A program made the position numbers and the translations under genes. The notes beneath the pieces are model-generated. The model did not search any database, was not told where the DNA came from, and saw only the letters and a program-made list of their open reading frames with translations. DNA of 64,000 nucleotides. Source: Fibrobacter sp. UWH6. Lineage in GTDB: Bacteria; Fibrobacterota; Fibrobacteria; Fibrobacterales; Fibrobacteraceae. The stretch lies in the NCBI RefSeq assembly GCF_900142465.1, contig NZ_FRAX01000003.1, forward strand, positions 1 to 64,000, given 5' to 3'. Of this stretch, positions 62,415 through 64,000 are shown piece by piece; the first letter of the stretch is position 1; each line of letters opens with the position of its first letter.

Positions 62415-64000
62415 ATGGCATACGTAGCAATGGCCCGTAAGTGGCGTCCGCAATCTTTCTCCGACATGGTCGGTCAGGAACACATCGCAAAAACCCTTCA
62501 GAATGCAATTGAAGGGGGCCGTCTTCACCACGCTTTCCTGTTTACCGGAACCCGCGGCGTCGGTAAGACCACCAGTGCCCGTATCCTCGCCCGTACTCTG
62601 AACTGCACCGGCGGCGACCCGCTCCACCCCTGTGGCGAATGCCCCAGCTGTAAGGACTTTGCCGGCGGCAATCCCATGGATATTTTCGAAATCGACGCCG
62701 CATCCAATACCGGTGTGGACAATATCCGCGACGTGATCGAACGTGTGCAGTACCCGCCTGTTATCGGCAAGTACAAGATTTTTATCATCGACGAAGTCCA
62801 CATGCTTTCTACCGGTGCCTTCAACGCCTTGCTGAAGACTCTTGAAGAACCGCCTGAACATGTAATCTTTATCTTCGCCACCACCGAAGTCAACAAGGTG
62901 CCCCAGACTATTCTTAGCCGCGTGCAGCGTTTTGACTTCAAGCGCCTTTCTGTAGAACAGGTCCGCAGCCGTCTGCGCTACATTTGCGAACAGGAAAACA
63001 TCAACGCCTCCGACGAAACTCTTGACGTGTTCGCCGAAAAGGCAGACGGTTCCATGCGTGACGGCCTCACCTATTTCGATCAGGCCTACGCCTTTACCGG
63101 CAGCGAAATGACCGCCGAAGCCGTACGCAGCGTTCTGGGCATTCCCCCTGTAGAACTGTTCTTCACGCTGATTAATGCCATCGAAAGCCACGACCTCAAG
63201 GCCTGCTTCCATATGGTCGATGACGCCTGCAAGCGCGGTATCGAATTTACTCCCCTGCTGGATGGTTTCGGCAAGTTCCTCCGTAACCTGCTGTACTCCC
63301 GTCTGGACGCCTTTACCGCCGACGCCCTGAACGTCTCCGACGAAATGTACTCCAAGTACAAGAGCGCCGTTCCCGGCCTTGGCAACGTAGACATCCTCCG
63401 CATTTCCAAGATGCTGATCGACCTCCAGGGTACACTGCGTTACAGCACCAACCCCCGCCTTCTGGTAGAAACAACATTCGCCCGAATGGCATGGCTCGAC
63501 AGAATCGTCGACTTGAGGCGAGCTCTTGCCGCCATCAACGATCCCGCAAACGCCTCGGCCAGTGCTGACCAAGAGGCGCTAAAAAAAAAAGTAACTGATG
63601 TCCAGAATATGCTGGACGCCCAGGAAGAAGCCAAGGCACTCCAGCAAGCCGCAGAAAATCCCTTTGCCGCCATGGAAAGGGGCATCTCTGGAGGTTACTA
63701 CGGCGACGTCTACAGCCGCTACGAAGTGGCTGCCGCCTGGGGTTCCATCAGAAACCGCATCAACGATGACGGAGACTTCGCCTTTTCTGTGGCCCTCAAC
63801 GATTCCGTGCTTGAAACGGGCAACATCCAGGAAACCCCCTTCCCCATCGCCCTGACTTATGTAGGCGACGCCGGTAAAGACGCCTGGGGCCCCAAGCAGA
63901 TGGAAGAACACCCGGAATACCTGGAACGTCTAAAGCAGATTCTGGAAAATTGCCTACAGACCCCGGTTGCACTCTCCGTGAAGACCCGTGCCCTCAACGC
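62415..64000 (+). CDS. dnaX: DNA polymerase III subunit tau/gamma (partial, continues past the window)
   Basis: The first 528 codons are present. MAYVAMARKWRPQSF begins the protein; Walker A GTRGVGKTT (45-53); zinc module with Cys 64, 73, 76 and 79, the same positions as in E. coli; Walker B/DExx IIDEVHM (125-130); sensor and arginine region TLEEPPEHVIFIFATTE and ILSRVQRFDF. Domains I-III end near residue 370. tau holds the replisome together (DnaB and polymerase core contacts at its C-terminus), gamma is the short clamp-loader form. Codons 389-392 are CTA AAA AAA AAA, a ten-A run described separately; the original frame continues beyond it to the window end. Confidence 0.97.
   Translation, partial: MAYVAMARKWRPQSFSDMVGQEHIAKTLQNAIEGGRLHHAFLFTGTRGVGKTTSARILARTLNCTGGDPLHPCGECPSCKDFAGGNPMDIFEIDAASNTGVDNIRDVIERVQYPPVIGKYKIFIIDEVHMLSTGAFNALLKTLEEPPEHVIFIFATTEVNKVPQTILSRVQRFDFKRLSVEQVRSRLRYICEQENINASDETLDVFAEKADGSMRDGLTYFDQAYAFTGSEMTAEAVRSVLGIPPVELFFTLINAIESHDLKACFHMVDDACKRGIEFTPLLDGFGKFLRNLLYSRLDAFTADALNVSDEMYSKYKSAVPGLGNVDILRISKMLIDLQGTLRYSTNPRLLVETTFARMAWLDRIVDLRRALAAINDPANASASADQEALKKKVTDVQNMLDAQEEAKALQQAAENPFAAMERGISGGYYGDVYSRYEVAAAWGSIRNRINDDGDFAFSVALNDSVLETGNIQETPFPIALTYVGDAGKDAWGPKQMEEHPEYLERLKQILENCLQTPVALSVKTRALN
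63579..63599 (+). other. Slippery A10 run in dnaX with stops in both alternative frames
   Basis: Frame 0 reads CTA AAA AAA AAA GTA ACT GAT and stays open. With one A lost the sequence reads CTA AAA AAA AAG TAA, stopping at once (392 residues). With one A gained, or with a -1 ribosomal shift, it reads AAA AGT AAC TGA (394 residues). The position, just behind clamp-loader domain III, is where gamma ends in bacteria that make two dnaX products. Confidence 0.75.

Follow-up and report, generated by a model that had tools for sequence, protein, structure and literature searches.

A dnaX gene with a run of ten adenines

The window, i.e. the whole stretch of 64,000 nucleotides of Fibrobacter sp. UWH6 DNA that was analysed, ends inside a dnaX gene on the forward strand. 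As the first-pass annotation had proposed, both the identity of this gene and an open frame 0 could be established: the frame continues to position 64187, and its product matches the Pfam families DNA_pol3_delta2, DNAX_ATPase_lid and DNA_pol3_gamma3, with the clamp-loader domains at residues 20–366, as well as NCBIfam TIGR02397 (431 bits, the cut-off being 250). The nearest named relatives are MAGs of Fibrobacter sp., several of them from horse faeces, their gamma parts being 93–95% identical. Just past the clamp-loader domains, beginning with the third base of codon 389, lies the run of ten A's, whose coordinates and length had been read correctly to the base; in frame, the surrounding sequence is GAG GCG CTA AAA AAA AAA GTA ACT GAT. 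The features of the region are the following:

62415..64187, forward strand: dnaX, tau in frame 0, 590 residues, extending beyond the window end at 64000 (open reading frame; Pfam and NCBIfam)
63551..63556, forward strand: 5' arm (CGCCTC) of a predicted RNA hairpin spanning 63551–63578, −10.6 kcal/mol
63573..63578, forward strand: 3' arm (GAGGCG) of this hairpin, 2 nt away from the run and containing a Shine-Dalgarno-like GAGG (63573–63576)
63581..63590, forward strand: candidate slippage run of ten A's (A10), codons CTA AAA AAA AAA
63592..63594, forward strand: TAA stop, reached when the run is one A shorter or two A's longer; gamma of 392–393 residues
63596..63598, forward strand: TGA stop, reached when the run is one A longer or the frame shifts by −1; gamma of 394 residues with the C-terminus KKKSN
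63600..63617, forward strand: hairpin GTCCAG-N6-CTGGAC with perfect pairing, 3' of the run, seen in this gene but not conserved as an element

The two stops predicted at the outset are thus in place: removing one A yields the reading ...AAG TAA, and an extra A, or a −1 shift, yields ...AGT AAC TGA. The locus displays the sequence layout of the Thermus type of dnaX, namely at least nine A's at the gamma/tau junction, early stops in both other frames and an open frame 0.

Conservation of the run and switching of the tau frame

Alignment of dnaX among Fibrobacter species, the comparison that the first-pass annotation had called for, revealed an exact A10 in 75 of 76 species and A11 in the remaining one; both non-tau frames are closed within six codons in all 76, and in 34 of 47 diverse representatives, compared with 7% at control positions of the same genes. 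The −1 stop is more distant in three species (L037, L039 and L064), the +1 stop being retained in every A10 Fibrobacter gene. The constraint appears at the level of the nucleotides: the three lysine codons of the run are AAA in 76/76 species, whereas AAA encodes the remaining conserved lysines of the gamma part in no more than 26% of them; the codon 5' of the run is TTA, GTA, CTA, ACA or ATA, with a variable residue (Leu, Val, Thr or Ile) and a constant final A; the valine codon 3' of the run, which creates the +1 stop, is GTA in all 76 species, GTA accounting for about 16% of gamma-part valine codons. Invariant codons are 6 out of 360 in the gamma part of this set, and one further run of at least eight A's occurs in the 154,455 nt that make up the gamma parts of the 133 genes carrying the run. 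Genome-wide, A/T runs of at least ten number just 14 distinct ones on both strands of 3.92 Mb. Taken together, these sequence comparisons indicate that the run at this site is not there by chance.

Throughout the phylum, 145 of the 149 dnaX genes studied in Fibrobacterota carry 8–12 A's, in any codon phase, at residues 375–430, i.e. at the gamma/tau junction. It had been stated beforehand that slippage would be refuted if close relatives had lost the run with no change elsewhere; no such loss was encountered, all same-family relatives examined retaining A9–A11. The four species devoid of the run belong to two other families: in L124 and L125, frame 0 stops at 440–444 residues beside a YbaB/EbfC-like open reading frame, and the tau tail seems to have been lost together with the run; in the second family, the open frame of L281 extends over 496 codons and that of L139 reaches a contig end.

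The frame that encodes the tau tail is not the same in all species. In eight of them, frame 0 (gamma) terminates right after the run and the tail is found in the +1 frame (L069, L130, L141 and L143) or in the −1 frame (L096, L109, L127 and L128); these displaced tails match the tau tails of relatives, with best E values between 1e-13 and 1e-118. Three further −1 cases (L289–L291) were judged by their open frame. The switch is due to A11, as compared with sister species, in the single species L069 and L096 and to the phase of the run in the others; the A11 cases are possibly homopolymer assembly errors, an explanation which does not apply to the phase-shifted A9 and A10 genes. A maximum-likelihood phylogeny built from the gamma part calls for at least eight switches of the tau frame. 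Changes of run length or phase, one way or the other, would be tolerable only where expression itself often shifts in both directions, as slippage would make it do. The occurrence of both shift directions among genes of the same function has been taken to point to frameshifting during transcription and not at the ribosome (Antonov 2013; PMC3711429, main text).

A clade of 11 species of the same family (L101–L107 and L110–L113) carries A9, with frame 0 ending 5–51 codons past the run; the tail, conserved but shorter (80–111 codons), is found in the +1 frame only, so that tau looks cut down to its C-terminal end.

In Bacteroidia, which were taken as a test set separate from Fibrobacterota, A9 or A10 is present near residue 370 in 32 of 36 loci, with early stops in both other frames in 24 of 27. 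A9 or A10 with flanking stops is seen in the Bacteroidia dnaX loci L246–L275 and L219–L227, and about a quarter of 116 sampled Bacteroidia genomes list an open frame of just 359–422 codons, which suggests frame-switched genes. Runs of at least nine A's are absent from nine Firmicutes-type dnaX loci; three Lentisphaeria-type loci (L230, L231 and L236) have A9 near residue 445.

A predicted hairpin upstream of the run

The inverted repeat at 63551–63578 is 5' adjacent to the run, the arrangement found in the Roseiflexus IS630 type of slippage site. In terms of predicted energies, the window hairpin is stronger than those at control positions of the same gene (p 0.017), of shuffled sequences (p 0.058) and of synonymous recodings (p 0.027), a difference of moderate significance for this single gene. 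Many relatives possess the hairpin AGCGCCTC-CGAC-GAGGCGTT abutting the run; in other clades the place is taken by unrelated stems, among them CGCTTC-CAAT-GAAGCG, GACCCTG-CCTCC-CAGGGTT, GACCTC-TCC-GAGGTC and GCTCCCCGG-TTCGC-CCGGGGAGT, the last preceding a run of A12. Across Fibrobacterota, upstream hairpins exceed same-gene positions (Fisher test, p 1e-10 in one run and 6e-13 in another), shuffles (p 3e-14) and synonymous recodings (p 9e-15, on 39 genes picked after the hairpins had been seen and hence biased upward), all these p values, obtained with predicted energies, being optimistic as the representatives share ancestry. The Bacteroidia upstream hairpins are likewise enriched, with p 1e-8 against same-gene positions and 0.01 against synonymous recodings. 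L126, L135 and L136 have a weak hairpin or none.

One of the stems shows a compensatory change from C-G to U-A; covariation over 11 same-register stems of one clade detected a single compensatory pair, which is not significant compared to shuffles, so that the case for the hairpin is built on the energy tests and on the occurrence of unrelated stems in different clades. The odds that the hairpin promotes slippage are judged to be about even. The GAGG, close to the run, resembles a Shine-Dalgarno stimulator but belongs to the 3' arm of the hairpin; it is lost in a Fibrobacter clade (within L046–L062) which keeps A10. Downstream of the run, hairpins are enriched neither in Fibrobacterota (p 0.54) nor in Bacteroidia (p 0.33).

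Probable transcriptional slippage, its alternatives and its precedents

The reading which best accommodates these observations, and to which we assign a probability of roughly 0.83 on the strength of the comparative data, is that dnaX produces tau and gamma through slippage of RNA polymerase on A10; the two-product interpretation advanced in the first-pass annotation is thereby supported. RNA polymerase would slip on the T10 template, yielding dnaX mRNAs which differ in their number of A's; mRNAs with 10 (± 3n) A's would be read through to tau (590 residues), and all others would run into TAA or TGA within three codons, giving a gamma of 392–394 residues, a clamp loader that lacks tau's C-terminal part. 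The process may be assisted by a hairpin of the nascent RNA that ends 0–6 nt before the run, and the length of the run matches that of the RNA-DNA hybrid. That the mRNA is heterogeneous, that both proteins are made and that the hairpin helps is what we infer from the sequences compared.

Among the alternatives, programmed −1 ribosomal frameshifting of the E. coli style fares best and is still unlikely. Ribosomes would slip on A AAA AAA, helped by GAGG and by the hairpin at 63600–63617, and reach the TGA at 63596–63598 to give gamma; the in-frame A AAA AAA, the upstream GAGG and a downstream hairpin of 6 bp are all present in the window. However, frame 0 reads CTA AAA AAA AAA GTA and offers no in-frame A AAA AAG, GAGG is missing in a clade where A10 is kept, and the downstream hairpin is not enriched; moreover, the stop that is farther off in some Fibrobacter species is the −1 one, the +1 stop being retained wherever a Fibrobacter gene has A10. 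Several species require a +1 change for tau, which a −1 ribosomal shift cannot make there. Despite its three elements in the window, this mechanism was therefore rejected, its GAGG and downstream hairpin not being conserved and +1 cases being on record; an Rfam search of the region recovered one chance match and no dnaX frameshift element. The frame changes in both directions fit slippage by RNA polymerase, which the comparative data thus support better than a −1 ribosomal shift.

The genome of the window encodes tRNA-Lys with both CUU (three genes) and UUU anticodons; in Thermus, the presence of separate CUU and UUU tRNA-Lys has been suggested as possibly favouring slippage over ribosomal shifting (PMC5009743). 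The three tRNA-Lys(CUU) genes (L276–L278; G000:C4:19.5–20.0 kb) are arranged in tandem.

More improbable still is the view that ribosomes slide both ways on long poly-A, with no special signal, so that translation alone would generate both products. Sliding on poly-AAA has been reported for E. coli ribosomes (PMC4363877), and by sequence alone it is inseparable from transcriptional slippage; it leaves unexplained, however, the 5' hairpin and a run length matching the 9–10 bp of the RNA-DNA hybrid. Scarcely credible is replication slippage, by which the run would be a phase-variable tract and cells would switch between tau and gamma genotypes: it could account for the A11 variants of two single species, but 75 of 76 species have a fixed A10. 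As tau is in all likelihood essential, the off state would be lethal unless rescued by slippage during expression. A chance run in a linker that tolerates lysine, with no programmed expression, may equally be set aside, since a variable linker sequence which admits KKK does not explain the invariance of run, flanking codons and stops, nor the finding of one other run of at least eight A's in 154 kb of gamma-coding DNA.

Slippage of RNA polymerase in dnaX is not new in kind, being already known on A9 and A10 from Thermus and from the genes described by Antonov 2013 (PMC3711429). In Thermus thermophilus, transcriptional slippage has been measured on A9 (Larsen 2000, as cited in PMC5009743 and PMC1088944); gamma derives there from mRNAs in which the number of A's has changed, as is proposed here for Fibrobacter, and the two genes have in common an A run following the clamp-loader part, tau in a single open reading frame and stops in both other frames. 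They differ in that Fibrobacter has A10 and a 5' hairpin, slippage being in this case a prediction from sequence, and in the position of the run, about two-thirds through the gene in Fibrobacter and seven-eighths in Thermus (PMC1088944). With GeneTack, Antonov 2013 identified dnaX genes made of two open reading frames with 7–10 A's, including those of Chlorobi, for which transcriptional slippage was proposed; an A10 at the gamma/tau junction is a common trait, and the layout of those genes resembles that of the frame-switched Fibrobacterota. In all 17 genes, however, the DNA itself is frameshifted by −1, whereas tau is in frame 0 in the window and in the +1 or −1 frame in relatives (PMC3711429, main text, which does not mention a 5' hairpin).

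A hairpin of this type is known from the IS630 element of Roseiflexus, where slippage is stimulated by a stem-loop (Penno 2015, as cited in PMC5009743): in both cases an inverted repeat is located directly 5' of the slippage motif, folding in Roseiflexus into a hairpin of the nascent RNA at the RNA-DNA hybrid. The Roseiflexus motif is U5C5 and, as reported there, shows no detectable slippage in the absence of the hairpin, whereas the A10 of Fibrobacter should slip by itself; furthermore, the former belongs to a transposase and the latter to a cellular replication gene. With E. coli dnaX, finally, the Fibrobacter case shares the gene, the two products and a similar position of the site, but not the in-frame A AAA AAG nor a conserved downstream stem, and relatives of the window display both shift directions.

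What appears to be new is the conservation across a whole phylum, the two-way switching of frame within it and the hairpin 5' of the run in dnaX. These features, like the sharing of the trait with Bacteroidia, go beyond what the first-pass annotation had noted. The first-pass annotation knew of no report for this phylum, and a literature search found none on dnaX slippage in Fibrobacterota or Bacteroidia beyond Antonov 2013, considered in its main text, which counts one Fibrobacteres genome without naming it for dnaX and leaves its nine A10 species unnamed (PMC3711429). Tentatively, and at slightly less than even odds, a broader picture may be drawn, in which an ancient slippage cassette of Fibrobacterota and Bacteroidia dnaX, composed of a terminator-like nascent-RNA hairpin and a hybrid-length A run, would set the tau:gamma ratio, with slippage efficient enough to let the tau frame drift among 0, +1 and −1.

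The comparison bears on how widely bacteria make two forms of DnaX and on what maintains gamma. A putative slippage site common to a phylum and to a related one, with repeated frame switches that spare both products, provides strong natural evidence of selection on tau and gamma, and the 5' hairpin offers a directly testable hypothesis for the tuning of slippage efficiency. In practical terms, gene callers will label many such dnaX genes as truncated or frameshifted.

As to the other runs of at least ten A's in this genome, they are mostly intergenic or at the edges of open reading frames, with no second clear case among them; one A10 (L150; G000:C7:19796-19805) appears to be coding, as part of a 123-codon open reading frame ending ...CPKCLGQKKKRLEWLANARNAMEKGSSK, and is a possible second slippage site.
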